IMG/VR virus record: IMGVR_UViG_3300030328_004673
Coordinates: 1 to 38,548 of that record
Origin: a virus
Length of the DNA: 38,548 nucleotides
Strand: one strand, 5' to 3'
Shown: one piece after another, positions 2,732 through 21,602 of the stretch
Numbering within the stretch: the stretch's first letter is position 1
How the letters are laid out: each line of letters begins with the position of its first letter
The notes under the pieces: model-generated
Databases searched by the model: none
What the model was told of the DNA's origin: nothing
Seen by the model: only the letters and a program-made list of their open reading frames with translations
Translations under genes and position numbers: made by a program

Positions 2732-3106
2732 ATGAACCATAAAATTCCACAGTACACACAACAGATAAACCGACTCTATCTTGAAGGATTAGAGATAGAG
2801 TTAGGGCTACACCCTTGCAACGCGGACCACGTCGAGATCACGGTTCGTCAATCGAAGGAATCACCACATCAAGGCCTGATCGAGACGCCGGACGGCCCTA
2901 TAGACGAGTGCTACTTCGTGGTGGATAAAGCAGCAGCTGCTCTTTTGGAGGATGCTTTCGCCAAGGTAGCCGAGCACTCCCCCCCTCTAACCGACGGGCA
3001 GCGGATGCGAATCGAGGAAGCAAACGGCATCGTTCTGCACGAGTCGCAACGTACCTACACTGACGGAGACAACAACACCTGGGTTCAAGCTTGGGTTCGC
3101 ATTTAA
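2732..3106 (+). CDS. Hypothetical acidic protein, 124 aa
   Basis: The ATG at 2732 comes 2 bases after the upstream stop; the site AGAGGAG lies inside the end of the previous gene, so translation is coupled. The product is acidic, with an alanine-rich helix around residues 70-85 (DKAAAALLEDAFAKVAEHS). The stop at 3104-3106 is followed at once by an AACC array. No family is recognised. Confidence 0.75.
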   Translation: MNHKIPQYTQQINRLYLEGLEIELGLHPCNADHVEITVRQSKESPHQGLIETPDGPIDECYFVVDKAAAALLEDAFAKVAEHSPPLTDGQRMRIEEANGIVLHESQRTYTDGDNNTWVQAWVRI

Positions 3107-3108
3107 CT

Positions 3109-3124
3109 AACCAACCAACCAACC
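3109..3124 (+). repeat. AACC tetranucleotide array 3 (4 copies plus a variant unit)
   Basis: Four AACC units follow the stop codon of the 2732 gene after CT, then a variant AAACC unit and the leader AACGAGGATACAACC of the 3145 gene. The placement between stop codon and ribosome binding site is the same as in arrays 1 and 2. Confidence 0.9.
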
Positions 3125-3144
3125 AAACCAACGAGGATACAACC

Positions 3145-9906: not shown

Positions 9907-10502
9907 CAGTCGACCATCTTTAGCATTGGTCGAACACCAATCAGAGCAGCTGCTGTTTTGTGCTCAAGCTGTCGGTGTATTGTTTCGACAGCACCTTCGT
10001 ATGCTCCTCGAAATGCAACTCGCTGCGAGGCGATGTGACTTAGATCCATTTTCTTAAAGACCTGCCATCCACCACAAGCTTGGATCCCTCGCCAGGTGGC
10101 CTCATCCACCTCCCACTTGTACTCCGGTGCGGGGAAGTCAACCCATTCCTCGTCGTTGATGTATCGCCGAACGGGCTCACGGCTGCAGCCAGGATGTGCT
10201 GGTGTTCCCAGTCGCTTTGATGCGGCGTCCATGCACGCCGCCCACGCTTGCTCGTACCGAGTCGACACAGGTTGCTGGATACAGCTTCGCAACTGACCCG
10301 GCGTTGGCCAGTAATAACTATCCTTTTTACGGAGATAGACCGTAACTGCCTGCAGCACCTGCTCATCGGTTAAATCCGACAAAAGCATCTGGTACATCTC
10401 CATACTCTCCAGCATGTCAGCGTCCTTTCGCGAAGGTGGACGCACTCCGCAAGCACGTAAACTTGCAAAAGCTTTCGCAATTGTTTCGAGATCAACTGCC
10501 AT
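9906..10502 (-). CDS. Putative replicative helicase loader, 198 aa
   Basis: The ATG at 10502 follows CTAGGAGTAAGAAAA and overlaps the initiator stop by 11 bases. The N-terminal half (AKAFASLRACGVRPPSRKDA, MYQMLLSDLTDEQVLQAV, WPTPGQLRSCI) is like the helical domain of phage loader proteins (G39P/lambda-P-like, where a small helical domain binds the host or phage helicase). It has no Walker motif. The gene lies directly after the origin-binding initiator, the same O-P order as in lambda. I infer that it delivers host DnaB-type helicase to the origin. Confidence 0.6.
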   Translation of the reverse strand: MAVDLETIAKAFASLRACGVRPPSRKDADMLESMEMYQMLLSDLTDEQVLQAVTVYLRKKDSYYWPTPGQLRSCIQQPVSTRYEQAWAACMDAASKRLGTPAHPGCSREPVRRYINDEEWVDFPAPEYKWEVDEATWRGIQACGGWQVFKKMDLSHIASQRVAFRGAYEGAVETIHRQLEHKTAAALIGVRPMLKMVD

Positions 10503-11271
10503 TTTTCTTACTCCTAGCAAGAGCCAAAAGGCTTGCGCCCTGACCCATTTGTGGTTGGTTGGTTGGTTCGTTCATCGGAGCTACGGACTTCGTCGTCGCA
10601 AACTCCCAGTACTCCTCAAATTTGTTTATGATGGTTTGGAATTTTCTGACTATGAAAGCCCCATCTGGCCAAGGCTCCAAACCTCTAAGCTGTCGAGCTC
10701 TAAAGTCCTGCGACGTACTCCACCACTGCAAAACCAGCTTCACATCATTGAAACCGTGCAGACTAATGAGTTCGTTGAGCTTGTTTTTCTGCTTTTTGGA
10801 CCAGCGCATGACCACACCGTTGGCTGCCAGCGCCGAACGAGTAGCCTCCTGAAGTCCGTCAACATCAAGAATTGCTAATTGGGTATTATTACTATCACCC
10901 CCTAAAGGGGGTGTAGTATTAGTATATAAGGTGCGTTCATCCGTCAGCACCACCAACTCGCCGTGAGTTTCACCATTTTGTCCCGGTGGTTTCACGGTGG
11001 TTTCACGGTCGTGTCCCCTTTCTGCTCGTTCTTTAGTTTCTAACTGACTCGAAGTTTCACGGTCGTGTCCCGGTGGTTTCACGGTGGTTTCACCGGTTTG
11101 TCCCACAAGCCGATGGACAAAACGCCAGCCACGATTCCATTTCTTACCGTAGTGCCTTTTGCTTTTACCTGGATGAGTCTTCAGGTACTTCTCGCATAGC
11201 CACTCAGGCCACTCGTCTTTGGACAGATCGAGTGCCGACAGCTCGGCAAATTCTTGAAGCGTAAAATTCAT
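10492..11271 (-). CDS. Replication initiator (lambda-O-like), 259 aa
   Basis: The ATG at 11271 (MNFTLQEF) is the first good start. Residues about 20-60 (WPEWLCEKYLKTHPGKSKRHYGKKWNRGWRF) are basic, and residues about 63-100 are made of repeated GETTVKPPGHDRET units coded by the DNA iterons. The C-terminal part (about 150-230) is helical with WSKKQKNKLNELISLHGFNDVKLVLQWW and FIVRKFQTIINKFEEYWEF, as in phage replication proteins. As in lambda O, origin repeats sit inside the gene and the loader gene follows. A tail segment NEPTNQPQ comes from an AACC array (10553-10568). It should bind the iterons and recruit the host replisome via the 9906 product. Confidence 0.75.
   Translation of the reverse strand: MNFTLQEFAELSALDLSKDEWPEWLCEKYLKTHPGKSKRHYGKKWNRGWRFVHRLVGQTGETTVKPPGHDRETSSQLETKERAERGHDRETTVKPPGQNGETHGELVVLTDERTLYTNTTPPLGGDSNNTQLAILDVDGLQEATRSALAANGVVMRWSKKQKNKLNELISLHGFNDVKLVLQWWSTSQDFRARQLRGLEPWPDGAFIVRKFQTIINKFEEYWEFATTKSVAPMNEPTNQPQMGQGASLLALARSKKNGS
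10553..10568 (-). repeat. AACC array 4 (4 copies, on the - strand)
   Basis: The + strand reads GGTT four times, so the - strand transcript carries AACC four times, coding for PTNQP near the C-terminus of the initiator. It lies about 50 bases before the start of the helicase-loader gene (10502), similar to the intergenic arrays of the + operon. A shorter array (3 copies, 11464-11475) lies in the end of int. Confidence 0.9.
10866..10932. other. AT-rich segment with hairpin beside the iterons (origin unwinding element candidate)
   Basis: An AT-rich stretch (GGGTATTATTACTAT ... TAGTATTAGTATATAAG) surrounds a 7-bp hairpin CACCCCC/GGGGGTG at 10896-10902 and 10907-10913 with loop TAAA, extended by ACTA/TAGT after a one-base bulge. 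In lambda the origin consists of iterons in O followed by an AT-rich region and inverted repeat. The same parts are present here inside the initiator gene. Confidence 0.6.
10967..11104. repeat. Origin iterons: six GTTTCAC repeats in two copies of a 51-bp block
   Basis: GTTTCAC occurs at 10967, 10989, 11000, 11054, 11076 and 11087. Within each block the spacings are 22 and 11 bp, so the sites fall on the same face of the helix. The two blocks (10967-11017, 11054-11104) share near-identical sequence (CGGTGGTTTCACGGTGG, ending GTCCC) with a period of 87 bp. They lie within the reading frame of the replication initiator, so they encode the repeated VKPPGHDRET unit. Confidence 0.85.
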
Positions 11272-11310
11272 TGTGAACGCGCAGCCGACGCGCAAGTGGA
11301 TTCGTACTGG

Positions 11311-11340
11311 TACGTTGTCGAACGTTGTCGTACGTTTGCG
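11311..11340. repeat. Three tandem 10-bp repeats between int and the initiator
   Basis: Units TACGTTGTCG (11311-11320), AACGTTGTCG (11321-11330) and TACGTTTGCG (11331-11340) lie in the 89-bp gap between the int stop and the initiator ATG. A helical-turn period in a non-coding place suggests cooperative protein binding. They lie 59 bp from the putative attP core, so they could be arm-type integrase or excisionase sites; replication-protein sites are another option. Confidence 0.85.
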
Positions 11341-11344
11341 TGTC

Positions 11345-11418
11345 TTCAGAACCTGGAGTTCTAATCAGCCGATTGTTTGCGTTTGCCCAACAGGTTCTGA
11401 ATCCTGTCGGGGGCGCCA
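11345..11418. other. Putative attP: tRNA 3'-end-like core in the 3' end of int
   Basis: On the + strand, 11390-11418 reads as a tRNA T-arm and 3' end: T stem ACAGG/CCTGT, loop TTC-T-GAAT (one extra T), acceptor CGGGGGC, then G and CCA. From memory this is very like the 3' end of bacterial tRNA-Arg genes, a common phage attB site. No 5' half of a tRNA precedes it, so it is not a tRNA gene. An exact 11-bp inverted repeat, TTCAGAACCTG at 11345-11355 and CAGGTTCTGAA at 11391-11401, flanks the int stop codon. Integration at this core would separate int from its last 12 to 19 codons. Confidence 0.55.
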
Positions 11419-12572
11419 CCAATCGCTGATAGCCGCCCTCCTTTGTGACTTAATGGTAATTGTGGTTGGTTGGTTACGCGCAGAGAGCGCGCAGGTGTAA
11501 TGTCTGGAATCAATGCTACAGTTTCAACGAGATTTAATCCAGTTGGATCAAGATAATGTTCGCGAGCGTTGACGGAAAGCCTGTGGCCAACAAGATAATT
11601 CACTGACTCGACATCGGCATTTAATTTTTTTAATCCTGTGATAAAGGTCTTGCGGAAAGCCTTTGAGGGTTGGCCTCGATAGCGCATTTCTATATCGCGC
11701 CGCGTCTCCTCATCATATTCAGCAGCTGCCACCCTATCCCAGACCGCTTTCCAGCGGTGACTTGCCACGCCATTCAGGCCAGCGACTTTACCCTCTCGCA
11801 CACCCCATCCCGCCATGTGCTGGGCTAGGTGTTTCGAGATTGGAATGGTTTTGGCTTCCCTGCCCTGCCTCGTCTTGCTGCCTGGAAGATCTTCTGGCAT
11901 TTCCAGCACGCAGGCATTGAGTCTGAACATGTCCCACGTGAGCGCACAGATCGTAGAGGCCCGCAGGCCCAGGAAACGAGACAGAACGGCTGCACGATAC
12001 ATTTTCTCGCCATTACACTCATGGATAAACTGATCCAACAGCGTCCAAGTGGGTGCATGCGAGGCAGCGATGCCCGCACGTGGCAACTTAATGTGACGTG
12101 GGTGCGGAATCGGGTCACCGATCCAGTTGAACAGATCTTTCCAGCACGTGTGGATGTGACCCATATACCGATAGCGAGTATCGACTCCGAGCTCACCCTT
12201 GATCGTGTTGTAAAATCGTTTGACGTTCATGAGCGTCAACGCACTCGCATCGACGGCTGTTCTCTTACCACGACAGAGCTCTGCAAAGGCATAGAGGACA
12301 CGACGCTTCTCTCGCCACGTCTTAGCCCTCACGTCACCATCAATCGACTCTAGGTACATCTCTATGAGCTCATGTAGCGTCTGGTTTACCGTATCCCTCT
12401 TACGCCAGAAACCTTTTTCATTGAGGCTGCGTTGAATCTCACCTGCCAAAATGATTGCATCCTCATACTCGGCCACAGTTACACTTGGATTTACTCGCTT
12501 ACCAGTGACGTACTCATTCCACCGAATAGCAAAGCTGCCGTTTTTCAACTTGTCTATTCTGGCTTTCGGCAC
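11361..12572 (-). CDS. int: Tyrosine recombinase integrase, 403 aa
   Basis: The GTG at 12572 has GCGAGGTG upstream. The order is N-terminal arm-binding-like domain (1-55), SAM-like core domain (60-165: LHELIEMYLESI, WREKRRVLYAFAEL) and catalytic domain (175-345). The catalytic residues seen are Arg204 (LGLRAST), Arg307 in KAFR (the usual HxxR His is Lys304), His330 (LVGHR) and nucleophile Tyr340 (HYLD). It would insert and excise phage DNA at att sites. The excisionase-like gene upstream overlaps it by 19 bases. The last 15 or so codons overlap a tRNA-like putative attP. A VTNQPQ stretch comes from an AACC array. Confidence 0.95.
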   Translation of the reverse strand: MPKARIDKLKNGSFAIRWNEYVTGKRVNPSVTVAEYEDAIILAGEIQRSLNEKGFWRKRDTVNQTLHELIEMYLESIDGDVRAKTWREKRRVLYAFAELCRGKRTAVDASALTLMNVKRFYNTIKGELGVDTRYRYMGHIHTCWKDLFNWIGDPIPHPRHIKLPRAGIAASHAPTWTLLDQFIHECNGEKMYRAAVLSRFLGLRASTICALTWDMFRLNACVLEMPEDLPGSKTRQGREAKTIPISKHLAQHMAGWGVREGKVAGLNGVASHRWKAVWDRVAAAEYDEETRRDIEMRYRGQPSKAFRKTFITGLKKLNADVESVNYLVGHRLSVNAREHYLDPTGLNLVETVALIPDITPARSLRVTNQPQLPLSHKGGRLSAIGGAPDRIQNLLGKRKQSAD

Positions 12573-12745
12573 GTCGTCACCTCGCGAAACCAGGTGTCAA
12601 CAACCCCTTGCTCCCATCGGTAAGGCGTATTGTTCCCACCAATTTGAACATAAGGCACCTCTTTTGTTTTAACCTCCATAAGCTTGTTAAGCGTATGGCG
12701 AGAAACATTGAGGTGGCGTAAGACTTGGGCCGTCGTCATCCACAT
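12554..12745 (-). CDS. Excisionase-like winged helix-turn-helix protein, 63 aa
   Basis: The product starts MWMTTAQVLRHLNVSRHTLNKLM, an HTH of the MerR/excisionase type, followed by a short wing region (VPYVQIGGNNTPYRWEQGVVDTWF) ending in a Trp-containing helix. Such proteins bend att DNA and direct the integrase towards excision. It overlaps the integrase start and lies just downstream of four repressor operators, so repression in the lysogen would silence both. A role as an early regulator is also possible. A GGGG element is 12 bases from the ATG, so translation may be weak. Confidence 0.75.
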   Translation of the reverse strand: MWMTTAQVLRHLNVSRHTLNKLMEVKTKEVPYVQIGGNNTPYRWEQGVVDTWFREVTTCRKPE

Positions 12746-12763: not shown

Positions 12764-12862
12764 GCTACTAAACGTAGCAATGTTTTTTTATTTTACGCTA
12801 CAAAACATAGCAGGCTACAGCACATAGCCTCACATTGTTAAAAGCATGCTACTGTCTGTAGC
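12764..12862. promoter_or_regulatory. Four repressor operators before the early - strand operon
   Basis: Four 15-bp palindromes of the form GCTAC-N5-RTAGC occur at 12764-12778, 12797-12811, 12814-12828 and 12848-12862. Centre spacings are 33, 17 and 34 bp. The last overlaps the repressor stop codon. A fifth copy lies at the repressor start (13314-13328). The intervening DNA is AT-rich (TTTTTTTATTTTAC) and should hold the promoter for xis, int and replication genes, but no box pair is clear enough to call. These are very probably the binding sites of the XRE repressor. Confidence 0.85.
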
Positions 12863-13313
12863 GTTCTGCCATCGCCACACAACTTGCCAACATTGCTTCC
12901 CGCATCGCTGGAGCATCCAAATAGGCTTCCGTAATGTGGTTCAAAGCATCGCGTTCAGCATCACTCAACTCCGTTAGGCAGCGAGCTAAGATATGAAAAG
13001 CCATGTGTTTTCCAGTTACAGATTTACGATATAAAAGTTGCAGTAAAGCAAATCTTTCTTTCATCGTTTCAGCCGGTGGAGCAGAATCGGGGACTAGGCG
13101 ATCATCGTCAAGTGGCAGTGGCACTGCCTCTAAGACATAGCCTAATACCTTAAATGCTGCCTCAGCACGATTCAATTTCATTGCTCTAACAGCGGATTCA
13201 AGATGGGAATACCCCTGCCGGGAAACCCCAATCGCATCTGCCATTTCTTTTTGTGAAACGCCGGCTTCCTGCCGAATACGTTTCAATTGATCAATAAGTT
13301 TTTCTGTTGTCAT
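12849..13313 (-). CDS. XRE-family phage repressor, 154 aa
   Basis: An ATG at 13313 is preferred to a GTG at 13340. The N-terminal 60 residues form an XRE HTH (LKRIRQEAGVSQKEMADAIG, then VSRQGYSHLESA). The rest is helical, and no LexA/S24-type Ser-Lys protease domain is present, so RecA-triggered self-cleavage is not expected. An operator palindrome ends directly before the ATG, leaving no ribosome binding site; a leaderless message, like lambda cI from PRM, would explain this. The gene is on the same strand as lysis and early genes, directly after the lysin stop. It probably binds the five GCTAC-N5-GTAGC sites. Confidence 0.85.
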   Translation of the reverse strand: MTTEKLIDQLKRIRQEAGVSQKEMADAIGVSRQGYSHLESAVRAMKLNRAEAAFKVLGYVLEAVPLPLDDDRLVPDSAPPAETMKERFALLQLLYRKSVTGKHMAFHILARCLTELSDAERDALNHITEAYLDAPAMREAMLASCVAMAERYRQ

Positions 13314-13328
13314 GCTACTAAGTGTAGC
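13314..13328. promoter_or_regulatory. Fifth operator, abutting the repressor start codon
   Basis: GCTACTAAGTGTAGC has the same palindromic arms as the four sites at 12764-12862. It touches the repressor ATG (13311-13313). Repressor bound here would block its own gene's transcription or translation start, i.e. autoregulation. Confidence 0.85.
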
Positions 13329-13340
13329 ATATTTGGACAC

Positions 13341-16931: not shown

Positions 16932-19900
16932 TTAGCGGTTGTAAATCTTTTCCAATCCGCGTTTTTGGGTTTGCAATTCCCTAGCCTTTTCCTCATATTT
17001 TCGCAACTGCGCTTCAGTCTTGCTAGGGATCTCACGTTGCACACTTGTTGCAAGGCTCATTGCGCGCTCCGCTCCACGGTCGGGCCTTGCTGGTAAATCG
17101 ACTGGAGACAAACCGTAAGCGTCGAGGAAGTCAATGTATCGCTCTGCAACTGCAACTGGCTGCATACCACCCATCAGACCGCGCAACCATTGCCATGTTA
17201 AAATGGCTTTTTTGCTGCTATCGTCACCCCTATCAACAAGAGCGTAATAACCAGGAACATCGTCGCCATCTCTGTAGTAGCTATTTAATCGATCAGACTC
17301 ATCTGGTATCCACTCTGGTTCGAAGAGCTGCAAAAACAAATGGCCTATTGGCGTTTTAATAAATGCACGCGGTATCCTGTTGGCATACGGTTCTGTCGTT
17401 CGTATACCATCAAACTCCCCATCTGTGAGAATAGCATGTGTTTTGAATAAACTACCTGGATCGAATGGCATAATCGTAGACGTTTGACCAACAATCGCGT
17501 CAAATGATTCAGCCGTAGTGGGACCACGTACTGTTTTACCGGATTTCTTAGCAGCCAAATCGTGCATTGCTGACAACCCGCCATACGAAGCCAAATTTAA
17601 TAAATTATACGACAGAAACATTGCGTCGGGTATTGATTGACTTGGCGTTAAGTGCATTATTCGTTTGTTTGTTGGACTTTTGTATTCGCCCAATGCAATT
17701 CTGCCTATGTCTTGATCATTAAAATTCATGAACTGCTCTTTTTCAGCATTCAACAAACGTGGTTGTGCTGCGTAAAACCTTGCAGGTAGCGCAATTCGTT
17801 GTGGATTCTTCGCGGCAGCTGTCCAGAACGCATCCATGTTTTTACGTATAAACGTGTAAAACGTAAATACCAACCGACCCCATGACCTCTCGAATGGAGT
17901 CAGGGTGCTGTAATCGTAAAGGCTTTCACGAGCTCGGCGCGCAGCTTGTGCAGGCGCTTCACCTCGTTTTAATGCGTCTAGGAAAGTGCCTACACGAAAC
18001 TGATATTCCAGTGCGTCGTTTGTTTTGCGTAACGTGTCTTGCAAATCTCCAGCGACTCGCTGTGCTGCCTTAAATACGCCGGGCGCTGAACGAAGCATTT
18101 CATCCATGAGGTACTTGCCGTTTTCAATTTTTGCGTAGGTTCGGTTGATGCCGTATTGCTGCGCTACTTCGTGTAGTTCGTCGACACTCCACACGTTGCC
18201 TCTTCCATCAACGAAAGTCGATGCGTCAGGATCTACACCCTTGACCCCACCTCTAGCTTCACGCATTACCATTTTGCCAGTAATCAATGGGTGGCGGAAC
18301 ATTGTTCCAACTGTGCCAGCAACGCGACCACCCTGCGTCATAACAAGTTGTTCGGGCACGGATAAAAGGTTCCCAAGCATGTACCAAGGCTTTACCATCA
18401 AATAGCCAAGCGTCATTGCTTCACGAGAAAACGCTCGCATATTGTCAATTAGTTTTGACCTAGTCATTGCACGCGCGTCTACAAGCCCGAGTTCCCGCAT
18501 TCGACGTATTTCATTTTGTAGCCAAGGCACCATTGTGACGTTGTCTCGACCGGTCGTAAACAGATCGCGAGATTCTAATGGAATCATGCCCTTATTTTTG
18601 AGAACGAACTCGTCCAAGCCTGTTCGCCGCAAATAGTTAAGAGCTCTCGTTTCAGCAACTGTTCCGCCGCCGCTTAATATGCGCTCGATTCTTGCCGGCG
18701 ATGGCTTGGTAACAAGATCTTTTGCAACCTTAATAGCCGGATCATTGGCTTTCAAAGCAAAACCGTTTCGGATTAAGTCCTCTGTCGCTTGCGACATATA
18801 CGTTCGATTTCTTAATTGTAAAACAACGTCAGTTAGCCACTCGCCATATTTCATCCCAGTAGGCGTACCTAAATCTTTAAGTATGGCAGCGGCTTCCTCA
18901 CCAAACACATTAGCAAGGCTTTCATTTGAAACAATTTCCTGAAGATCAATTTCTCGTTGTGGATAAAAAAACTTTTCATAAAGAATGCGCGCTTTTTCAT
19001 CTCGCAACGCACTTATCTTTTCATCAAACGTACCTTGTATGCCGTACAATTCCGGAGAAACCCTACCCGAAACACTACCGCCTTTGACGTCGCCTTTTTT
19101 GCGAGTTGCTTTTATCAACGGCTGAAACAGACTCTGGGCCACAATCTTAGCCTGATAAGTCATGTCTTGATCTAGGCGCGCGAACTCCTGATAAAGTTTT
19201 CTCTTGGCATATGAAAGGTTTTCATTCATCAACTTAACAACGTTATCGCCAAACATTTTGCGCAGCTGCTCGTCATTTGACTTCAAGTACCGACGAATAA
19301 ACTCGGGTTGTTTGACGCCGCCTTTCCCAAGATTGTCTGCTTGTCGCCACGCTTGAACGAGCTGAACCTGTTCGGGTTCGATAATCTTATACTGACGTGC
19401 GTCGTCCATTACTTTGGCAAATACTTCTGTATCGGACAAACCTTGTTTTCGATATTTGTTAATGTCACTTAGCAGGTTTGCCGAGTTTGATGACACTTTA
19501 CGAAACACCTCGTCGAGGGCAATCAGTGCTGGCTTTGTTAACCGAGCTCGGTCAAGGTTCATCACCTTGCCTAGCGTTGCTGCAGTCATTGAGCGCAAGC
19601 CGCTGCGCAAGTTAGCCGGCATCGCTTTCATCAGAGCATTGCCCATGCTGCGGACCAAGCCGGATTTAGGCAGGATCATTTGCTGCGTTGCTGCTCGACC
19701 TGCCATTTTACGAATGACTGCTTCGCGAAACACAGCAGCATCTTCAAGCGTAATAACGTTGTCGTTAATGTTGATTGGTACGTTGTAATCAGTCGCTAGC
19801 TTTTGCATCTTTTGCGCTTCAGCGCTCGACAGCTTTGCTGCATTGACGCCATCGACTTTGACGCGATTTTTTATTGACGCTCGTTCAAGCGGTTCAAGTG

Positions 19901-21602
19901 CAACTCGTACCGTTGATGTGATTTCGTCTGCTTCTTGAGGCGTTACCCACACGTTTGAAGCGATCATTTTTAGCTTGTCGCTACCTGCCCGACGTCTAGC
20001 GACGACCCGATGAGCTTCGCCAATCAATTGCACCAGCGCTTCTTGCTGTGGTGGCAGTTCACTAAGCAGCGGTAAGCCTGTTTTCTGACCAACGTAAACT
20101 GATTCAGCTAACTTCGATGGTTGGTAGGTGATGCCAAATACTTTGTTGATTAAATCAACATCAGGATCAGATGCTTTTGGGCCAGGCGCCAGACCATCAA
20201 TTTGTGTTTTACCGTCAGGCGTCATGGTAACGCGCGTTTTGCCGACTGTTGCCTCGGTCACACCAGGCTTGACTTTTATGTCCGGTCGCAGCGTTTTTGC
20301 ACCAGCACCGCGACGTGCTACCCGTTCAAGTTCTTCGAGATCGACGCCAGCTTCATCGGCTAGTTCCTTCATAATTTGCTGAACTTCGCCAGACTCATCA
20401 CTTACTCGATACGTTTTATTAACTAAACCGCGACGACGCTTGACCATTTCAGCAGCTGCTATATCAATTTCCGTTCCCATTAAATTTCTAAGAACCGCAG
20501 CAACACCTTCGCTAACATTGTCTGCGTTCTTAATTGTAGGCAGCGCTTTGAGTAACTCTGCAGACATGGTAAACGGTTTTGTAGCTGTCGCAAAAGTAGG
20601 AATGCCAGCCGCTAATTCTGCCAGCATTCCAACACTTGTTGCTGTAGAATAAGCATCACCATTTACAAGACCGCGAAAATGATCTAATCCGCTATAGTTA
20701 GGCTTTAAACCCTGGGCTTTCGCTGCAGTCTGAAAATCAGAGACAATGTCATCGCGACGTTTGTACTTTTGTAGGCCGCGATCCCACCATGTTTTGGCAT
20801 CGTAGCCACGCTGCTCGGCAGTAACACCAAGCAACATTTCACCAACAGTGCTGGCTACTTTATCGCCATAAACCTCATTAACATCCGATGCTTCCCCTTC
20901 AACTAGAGACGCATAAGCGTTCATAAGGCCAGACTTTATTACTGCACCCGGTGACGAGCTGAACGGCAAAAGATAGCGAAGATCGACTTCTTGTTTTTCA
21001 ATATCGGGCAGTGATTTTGCTGCTTTTTTAAGTTCTGTGACTGCTTTACTAGTGGTTTGTCCAGCTTTTTCCGGTAGCGGAATACTGTAAAAACCCTCGG
21101 TCAACTGTGGCTGTATTCCTAACTGGCCAATGTTATACAAAATTGCCTGATACCAGCTTTCATTGGGAATAGATAAAGCCTTTTCACCGTATAGCTTTTT
21201 TAGTTCTTCGTTATGAATCTCGTTGAGGCGATTCTCTTGACGCAGCTCATCCTGCTGTTCGTCGGTAAGCGTTGTCGGAATAGGCTGTGGTTTGGCGTAG
21301 CCCTGCTGAATAGTGATAGCTTTAAGGTACTTGTCCCAAAACGTTTTTGGTTGCTGAGGCGAAACGACAATGTCATCACGCTCTTCCTGACGCTCCTGCT
21401 TTATGAGCTCGTCACTTTTTAAGTCTGTGACGCGCTTAACCTGCTCATCTGCATCGAGTTTGTCCTCTGCCATTTCACGAATTGCGAGTTCTGCTTCCGC
21501 AATTTTAGGGTCTAGGGGCTCGCGAGGAAGATCATCAAGCTTTAGTTCGTTGAGCTCAACGCCCTCTCGGCGCATCCGATACAGTTCCTCAAGAGTAGCC
21601 AT
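16932..21602 (-). CDS. Very large internal virion / DNA ejection protein, 1556 aa
   Basis: The ATG at 21602 follows the stop of the previous gene by 1 base. The protein is long, mostly helical and charged, with KR-rich linkers and no tape-measure-like coiled-coil periodicity. A hydrophobic part in the C-terminal third (LGYLMVKPWYMLGNLLSVP) precedes FYTFIRKNMDAFW and a Pro/aromatic C-terminus. I see no lysozyme or transglycosylase motif with confidence. Size and position after the nozzle and paralogous tail genes fit the role of gp15/gp16-like ejection proteins of short-tailed phages, which form a trans-envelope channel for DNA. It is the largest gene in the genome. Confidence 0.6.
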   Translation of the reverse strand: MATLEELYRMRREGVELNELKLDDLPREPLDPKIAEAELAIREMAEDKLDADEQVKRVTDLKSDELIKQERQEERDDIVVSPQQPKTFWDKYLKAITIQQGYAKPQPIPTTLTDEQQDELRQENRLNEIHNEELKKLYGEKALSIPNESWYQAILYNIGQLGIQPQLTEGFYSIPLPEKAGQTTSKAVTELKKAAKSLPDIEKQEVDLRYLLPFSSSPGAVIKSGLMNAYASLVEGEASDVNEVYGDKVASTVGEMLLGVTAEQRGYDAKTWWDRGLQKYKRRDDIVSDFQTAAKAQGLKPNYSGLDHFRGLVNGDAYSTATSVGMLAELAAGIPTFATATKPFTMSAELLKALPTIKNADNVSEGVAAVLRNLMGTEIDIAAAEMVKRRRGLVNKTYRVSDESGEVQQIMKELADEAGVDLEELERVARRGAGAKTLRPDIKVKPGVTEATVGKTRVTMTPDGKTQIDGLAPGPKASDPDVDLINKVFGITYQPSKLAESVYVGQKTGLPLLSELPPQQEALVQLIGEAHRVVARRRAGSDKLKMIASNVWVTPQEADEITSTVRVALEPLERASIKNRVKVDGVNAAKLSSAEAQKMQKLATDYNVPININDNVITLEDAAVFREAVIRKMAGRAATQQMILPKSGLVRSMGNALMKAMPANLRSGLRSMTAATLGKVMNLDRARLTKPALIALDEVFRKVSSNSANLLSDINKYRKQGLSDTEVFAKVMDDARQYKIIEPEQVQLVQAWRQADNLGKGGVKQPEFIRRYLKSNDEQLRKMFGDNVVKLMNENLSYAKRKLYQEFARLDQDMTYQAKIVAQSLFQPLIKATRKKGDVKGGSVSGRVSPELYGIQGTFDEKISALRDEKARILYEKFFYPQREIDLQEIVSNESLANVFGEEAAAILKDLGTPTGMKYGEWLTDVVLQLRNRTYMSQATEDLIRNGFALKANDPAIKVAKDLVTKPSPARIERILSGGGTVAETRALNYLRRTGLDEFVLKNKGMIPLESRDLFTTGRDNVTMVPWLQNEIRRMRELGLVDARAMTRSKLIDNMRAFSREAMTLGYLMVKPWYMLGNLLSVPEQLVMTQGGRVAGTVGTMFRHPLITGKMVMREARGGVKGVDPDASTFVDGRGNVWSVDELHEVAQQYGINRTYAKIENGKYLMDEMLRSAPGVFKAAQRVAGDLQDTLRKTNDALEYQFRVGTFLDALKRGEAPAQAARRARESLYDYSTLTPFERSWGRLVFTFYTFIRKNMDAFWTAAAKNPQRIALPARFYAAQPRLLNAEKEQFMNFNDQDIGRIALGEYKSPTNKRIMHLTPSQSIPDAMFLSYNLLNLASYGGLSAMHDLAAKKSGKTVRGPTTAESFDAIVGQTSTIMPFDPGSLFKTHAILTDGEFDGIRTTEPYANRIPRAFIKTPIGHLFLQLFEPEWIPDESDRLNSYYRDGDDVPGYYALVDRGDDSSKKAILTWQWLRGLMGGMQPVAVAERYIDFLDAYGLSPVDLPARPDRGAERAMSLATSVQREIPSKTEAQLRKYEEKARELQTQKRGLEKIYNR

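Follow-up and report, generated by a model that had tools for sequence, protein, structure and literature searches.

An integrase-like gene that ends in a tRNA-like sequence

The last codons of a putative integrase gene in the window analyzed here, a 38,548-nucleotide stretch that makes up the viral record IMGVR_UViG_3300030328_004673, resemble the 3' end of a tRNA gene, which raises the question of whether the attachment site of this phage lies within int and, if so, what integration would do to the integrase. The int gene (11361-12572, minus strand) has 403 codons, and its product matched the PHROG integrase family (E value 4.4e-19); the match to Pfam PF00589 was weak and only below the threshold. 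Motifs of the catalytic type were read by eye at GLRASTIC (202), KAFRKTF (304), GHRLS (329) and HY340LDP, and from these motifs and from what is generally known of the family we take Tyr340 to be the catalytic tyrosine. In Int itself, motifs with R, GH and Y can be made out, but the HxxR box reads KxxR, with a lysine in the first position. About 63 residues follow the presumed Tyr340. A sequence search of the PDB returned no match for Int, and a structure prediction from the single sequence gave a mean pLDDT of 37, which is too low for use. Judged by its sequence, the gene appears to encode a divergent, tyrosine-integrase-like protein, and the phage is temperate-looking.

The tRNA-like stretch (11390-11418, plus strand) reads ACAGG-TTCTGAAT-CCTGT-CGGGGGC-G-CCA. 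A T-stem of 5 bp without mismatch closes an 8-nt loop and is followed by the 3' strand of the acceptor stem, the discriminator G and CCA. The T-loop of a normal tRNA has 7 nt, and the extra T sits at position 11398 in the tRNA alignment used. The stretch covers codons 385-394 of int, ahead of the stop codon at 11361, and this putative attP core thus lies in the last codons of the gene, as an earlier note on this DNA had read it, extra T included. A scan of both strands for the T-arm/acceptor/CCA layout found it at this sole site in the window, and the mean number of matches in 200 Markov shuffles was 0.0. The 20 bp at 11399-11418 (plus strand) are identical to the 3' ends of bacterial tRNA-Arg genes, so that a core shared exactly with a tRNA 3' end adjoins int.

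The genome collection was searched with the pattern AGGTTC-N(1-2)-AATCCTGTCGGGGGCGCCA, which allows the loop with or without the extra base. The core without the extra T, AGGTTCGAATCCTGTCGGGGGCGCCA, was present in 35 bacterial contigs, and all 35 contigs carrying the pattern have a normal 7-nt T-loop. When ARAGORN was run on 19 of the 35, it called a tRNA-Arg ending at the core in 16, a tRNA-Pyl in one and no tRNA in the other two. The bacterial tRNA genes ending in the 11399-11418 sequence on which the earlier proposal depended do exist, and most of those scanned are tRNA-Arg genes. Their anticodons are CCT (in Kushneria, Salipiger, Lamprocystis and several deltaproteobacterial or myxococcal records) and TCT or CCG elsewhere. 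A shorter form of the core, with one mismatch allowed, was found in 50 of the 369 genomes of the class to which Kushneria belongs, and the same form read backwards as a control had no match among the genomes listed. The core also occurs inside a tRNA gene in two viral contigs.

Repeats lie on both sides of the core. Two tandem pairs, ACGCGCAG-N3-ACGCGCAA (11277-11295, plus strand, on the side away from int) and ACGCGCAG-N3-GCGCGCAG (11476-11494, plus strand, at about codons 360-366 in the int tail), are the only two occurrences in the window of RCGCGCAR-N3-RCGCGCA and share the same orientation; the expectation was 0.09, for a pattern that was picked after the repeats had been seen, and the single 8-mer RCGCGCAR is not rare (14 found versus 9 expected). 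From their sequence and position, the pairs are candidate arm-type sites for Int. Three 10-bp repeats with a period of 10, GTACGTTGTC, GAACGTTGTC and GTACGTTTGC (11310-11339, plus strand), are possible protein-binding sites. An 11-bp inverted repeat with 100% identity, TTCAGAACCTG (11345-11355) and CAGGTTCTGAA (11391-11401), flanks the int stop codon, and its right arm overlaps the core and takes in the extra T. The earlier note had reported both the 10-bp repeats and the inverted repeat, and both are present, though the latter is near chance for an 11-nt inverted repeat in the whole window (0.5 expected) and has little weight alone. The int message is also predicted to fold unusually strongly at its 3' end (11335-11425, minus strand; z -4.3), with two hairpins, one of 9 bp around the T-stem and a second one at the stop codon.

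Predicted consequences of integration for Int

Four elements come directly from the sequence analysis: the identity to tRNA, the placement of the core inside int, the repeats around it and the proteins predicted for the junctions. The true role of the site as attP, the place of strand exchange, the host and any effect on Int are what we infer. Adding to these elements the location of the site next to a possible xis and to an HTH gene that has operator-like palindromes, and the resemblance of the core to the attP cores of two actinophages (see below), we consider it probable that 11277-11494 is the attP with which a tyrosine integrase targets the 3' end of a tRNA-Arg gene, and that the change which integration would make in the int tail is a tolerated by-product.

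According to this proposal, the core and one arm pair would be written into an extended C-terminal tail of int itself. Strands would be exchanged most likely within 11399-11418. The phage copy of the 3' end would thereby restore the tRNA gene, and the body of int would become joined to the antisense strand of that gene. If attP lies in int, a change of the Int C-terminus on integration follows directly: codons 392-403 (QNLLGKRKQSAD) would be replaced by RTC and then by more residues encoded antisense along the tRNA. The earlier note had the int of a lysogen reading into host DNA; a new tail is indeed predicted, and it is more exactly an antisense reading of the tRNA, so that its first part should be nearly the same in any host that has this tRNA.

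The junction proteins were predicted by joining the body of int to 37 core-bearing sequences, i.e. the 35 genome loci and the two viral contigs. In all 37 the frame was open and started with RTC in place of QNLLGKRKQSAD, which would be the kind of C-terminal replacement known from Mx8-type integrases; these are predicted junctions, no lysogen having been seen. The tails are at least 11 codons long, with some frames reaching the edge of the DNA used, and past their first residues they are recognizably alike in most cases (the Kushneria example is RTCDLPLRRGPLYPAELRG). Both forms of Int would probably be active, since the presumed catalytic domain ends before the tail, and integration would alter activity modestly at most; the change of tail would then be a by-product of the compact packing of int and attP.

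The viral, phage and genome collections yielded no prophage, no lysogen junction and no closely related integrase. The searches for relatives of the integrase, run without a positive control and hence of little weight, returned none at the cut-offs used in IMG/VR, phage records and GTDB genomes, and none in the genomes of the two classes to which Kushneria and Salipiger belong (274 gammaproteobacterial and 289 alphaproteobacterial).

The extra T counts against the proposed attP, since it interrupts the identity midway along the tRNA-like stretch and leaves an 8-nt loop, and two other explanations of the stretch draw on it. The T might be an assembly or sequencing error, with int in fact reading on: it is a single inserted base seen in one virus record, and the T-loop has the normal 7 nt once it is removed. 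Without it, however, int would have 455 codons and would extend past 11271, where the next gene starts, which suggests, short of proof, that the T is real, and the T belongs to the 11-bp inverted repeat, itself near chance when taken alone; we regard an error as unlikely. Alternatively, the tRNA-like piece might be a relic or a decoy, with the working attP elsewhere, as the unusual T-loop and the failure to find junctions could indicate. Such a relic would have to have kept 20 bp of exact identity and a paired T-stem where int ends, flanked on either side by repeats, and the window contains no second tRNA-like 3' end of this layout to take its place, which makes this explanation improbable. 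If strand exchange occurs where we place it, an exchange 3' of the T would leave the 7-nt loop of the host in the rebuilt tRNA; ARAGORN tolerates the 8-nt loop and is for this reason no decisive guide to whether the extra T would damage the rebuilt tRNA.

The earlier note went further and saw in the tail change a possible built-in switch. Whereas its attP-like core within int is well supported in silico, its functional switch is not. For a switch, the free-phage tail QNLLGKRKQSAD and the prophage tail starting with RTC would have to differ in the activity, stability or site preference that they give to Int. The Mx8 integrase provides a precedent, its altered form being reported as less active or of changed specificity, and a tail that begins with RTC in 37 out of 37 junctions and stays similar through most tRNAs has a predictable start that could be selected. 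Against this, just 12 of the 403 residues change and neither tail was seen to be conserved in any relative. An effect on Int is doubtful because the change is small and lies about 50 residues past the presumed Tyr340; an effect of the tail change on activity is possible but not supported, and we think that a functional switch is unlikely.

Comparison with known systems and frequency of the layout

Attachment sites within an integrase gene have been described for very few elements (PMC4701971), and the layout proposed here for attP and int is rare but already known, Myxococcus phage Mx8 being the established case. According to PMC6070905, PMC4701971 and PMC4383910, which cite Tojo 1996 and Magrini 1999, attP lies in intP and integration alters the C-terminus of IntP, replacing 112 C-terminal residues by 13, with the altered IntP being less active or changed in specificity. 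The earlier note had drawn its parallel with phages that carry attP in the repressor gene; as Mx8 IntP illustrates, the idea is already known for integrases themselves too. As in Mx8, the attP proposed here is inside a tyrosine integrase gene that would gain a new 3' end on integration. In contrast to the 112 residues exchanged for 13 in Mx8, with a reported effect on activity, only 12 residues would be swapped here, past the presumed catalytic domain, and the two phages are likened by layout.

Other elements share parts of this arrangement. Streptococcal ICEs inserted in rumA (PMC4701971) also have their att site in the integrase gene and a C-terminus that is changed by integration, but they use a serine integrase and a protein-coding gene as target. 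The suicidal archaeal integrases of the SSV type (PMC8371274) have the att site within the integrase gene as well, but in them integration splits the gene in two, whereas here the last codons alone would change; the present integrase does not fit this suicidal type, its core coming after the presumed catalytic domain. In the actinophages RP3 and VWB, the annotated attP core shares about 90% identity with the core described here in its tRNA form and lies near the 3' end of int, although outside the int ORF.

The frequency of such arrangements was surveyed in genomes of the classes of Kushneria and Salipiger, from which 140 stretches with matches to the integrase family were taken. In 12 of the 140, selected by eye among the frames listed, an int-like gene and a tRNA gene converge, with the end of the former 13-119 nt away from the tRNA 3' end; this is the orientation predicted for the phage, and convergent int and tRNA genes are therefore ordinary. 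None of these 12 pairs overlapped, and no int frame across the core was seen in the survey. An ORF overlapping a tRNA-Val gene at locus L163 was discarded, since it looks like a spurious frame rather than an integrase. At another locus (L088, 4-741, minus strand), a frame that by eye resembles the end of a serine recombinase terminates in RTRQDSNLWPLPSEGSALSS over a tRNA-like match, and it is perhaps another integrase frame that runs antisense into a tRNA.

If the proposed attP is correct, this further phage case, in which the target is a tRNA, would be evidence of a recurrent layout. It also offers a simple way of asking whether such Int tails matter. The new tail would be the antisense of a conserved tRNA and hence predictable, and the same would hold for any integrase of this layout.

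Gene order around the putative attP

The genes on both sides of the putative attP are on the minus strand. Upstream of int, a small HTH protein of 63 amino acids that resembles an excisionase (12554-12745; HTH_17 below the cut-off, PHROG excisionase/regulator with an E value of 9.8e-5) is encoded by a gene that overlaps the start of int, and it is preceded by a gene for an HTH_3 repressor-like protein (12849-13340). Five exact GCTAC-N5-RTAGC palindromes are present in this region (within 12764-12862 and 13314-13328), four of them between the HTH_3 gene and xis (12764, 12797, 12814 and 12848) and the fifth where the HTH_3 gene begins (13314); from sequence and placement, they are likely repressor operators. 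On the other side, the first gene beyond attP (10492-11271) encodes a protein of 259 amino acids to which no function was given, and past it genes for a methyltransferase, RusA, ERF, an exonuclease and SSB and a tRNA-Asn gene follow on the same strand. The tRNA-Asn(GTT) gene of the phage (6179-6251, minus strand) has no encoded CCA and is located where plus- and minus-strand genes meet.

This gene order suggested a further idea, compatible with the proposed attP and additional to it: attP would lie between xis-int and the recombination/replication cluster, so that in the prophage the cluster would be parted from the xis-int promoter region, which the repressor would control, and excision would reconnect the two. 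The genes for HTH, xis and int, then attP, then the genes from the 259-amino acid protein to SSB, succeed each other on the same strand, four operator-like palindromes are directly upstream of xis, and a consensus scan, which is a weak method, listed no promoter or terminator from the int stop codon to 11278. In Tn916, integration parts the transfer genes from their promoter and circularization reconnects them, as was shown experimentally (PMC11658703). The phage would share this separation from a promoter by hypothesis alone; Tn916 is, moreover, a conjugative element that integrates into AT-rich regions, whereas the target of the phage would be a tRNA gene. On the other side, the 259-amino acid protein gene may have a promoter of its own in 11272-11398, and the repressor of a lysogen may silence everything anyway. 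We hold such control through gene order to be possible, with somewhat less than an even chance. A double switch, in which integration would at once reset the Int tail through the antisense tRNA and cut the replication and recombination genes off from a repressor-controlled xis-int promoter, with excision restoring the circle and ending the cut-off, appears improbable.

Among the other proteins of the window, no relatives were found for the major head protein and the portal, the terminase had distant matches alone, and the methyltransferase had generic relatives alone, the loci of which matched no other window protein. An open frame of 1556 amino acids without a Pfam or PHROG match extends over 16932-21602 (minus strand). 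Tandem AACC runs, which are far above chance in the window, occur on the plus strand at 469-491, 907-939 and 3105-3132, and on the minus strand at 10552-10572 and 11464-11475, in the 3' parts of minus-strand genes.
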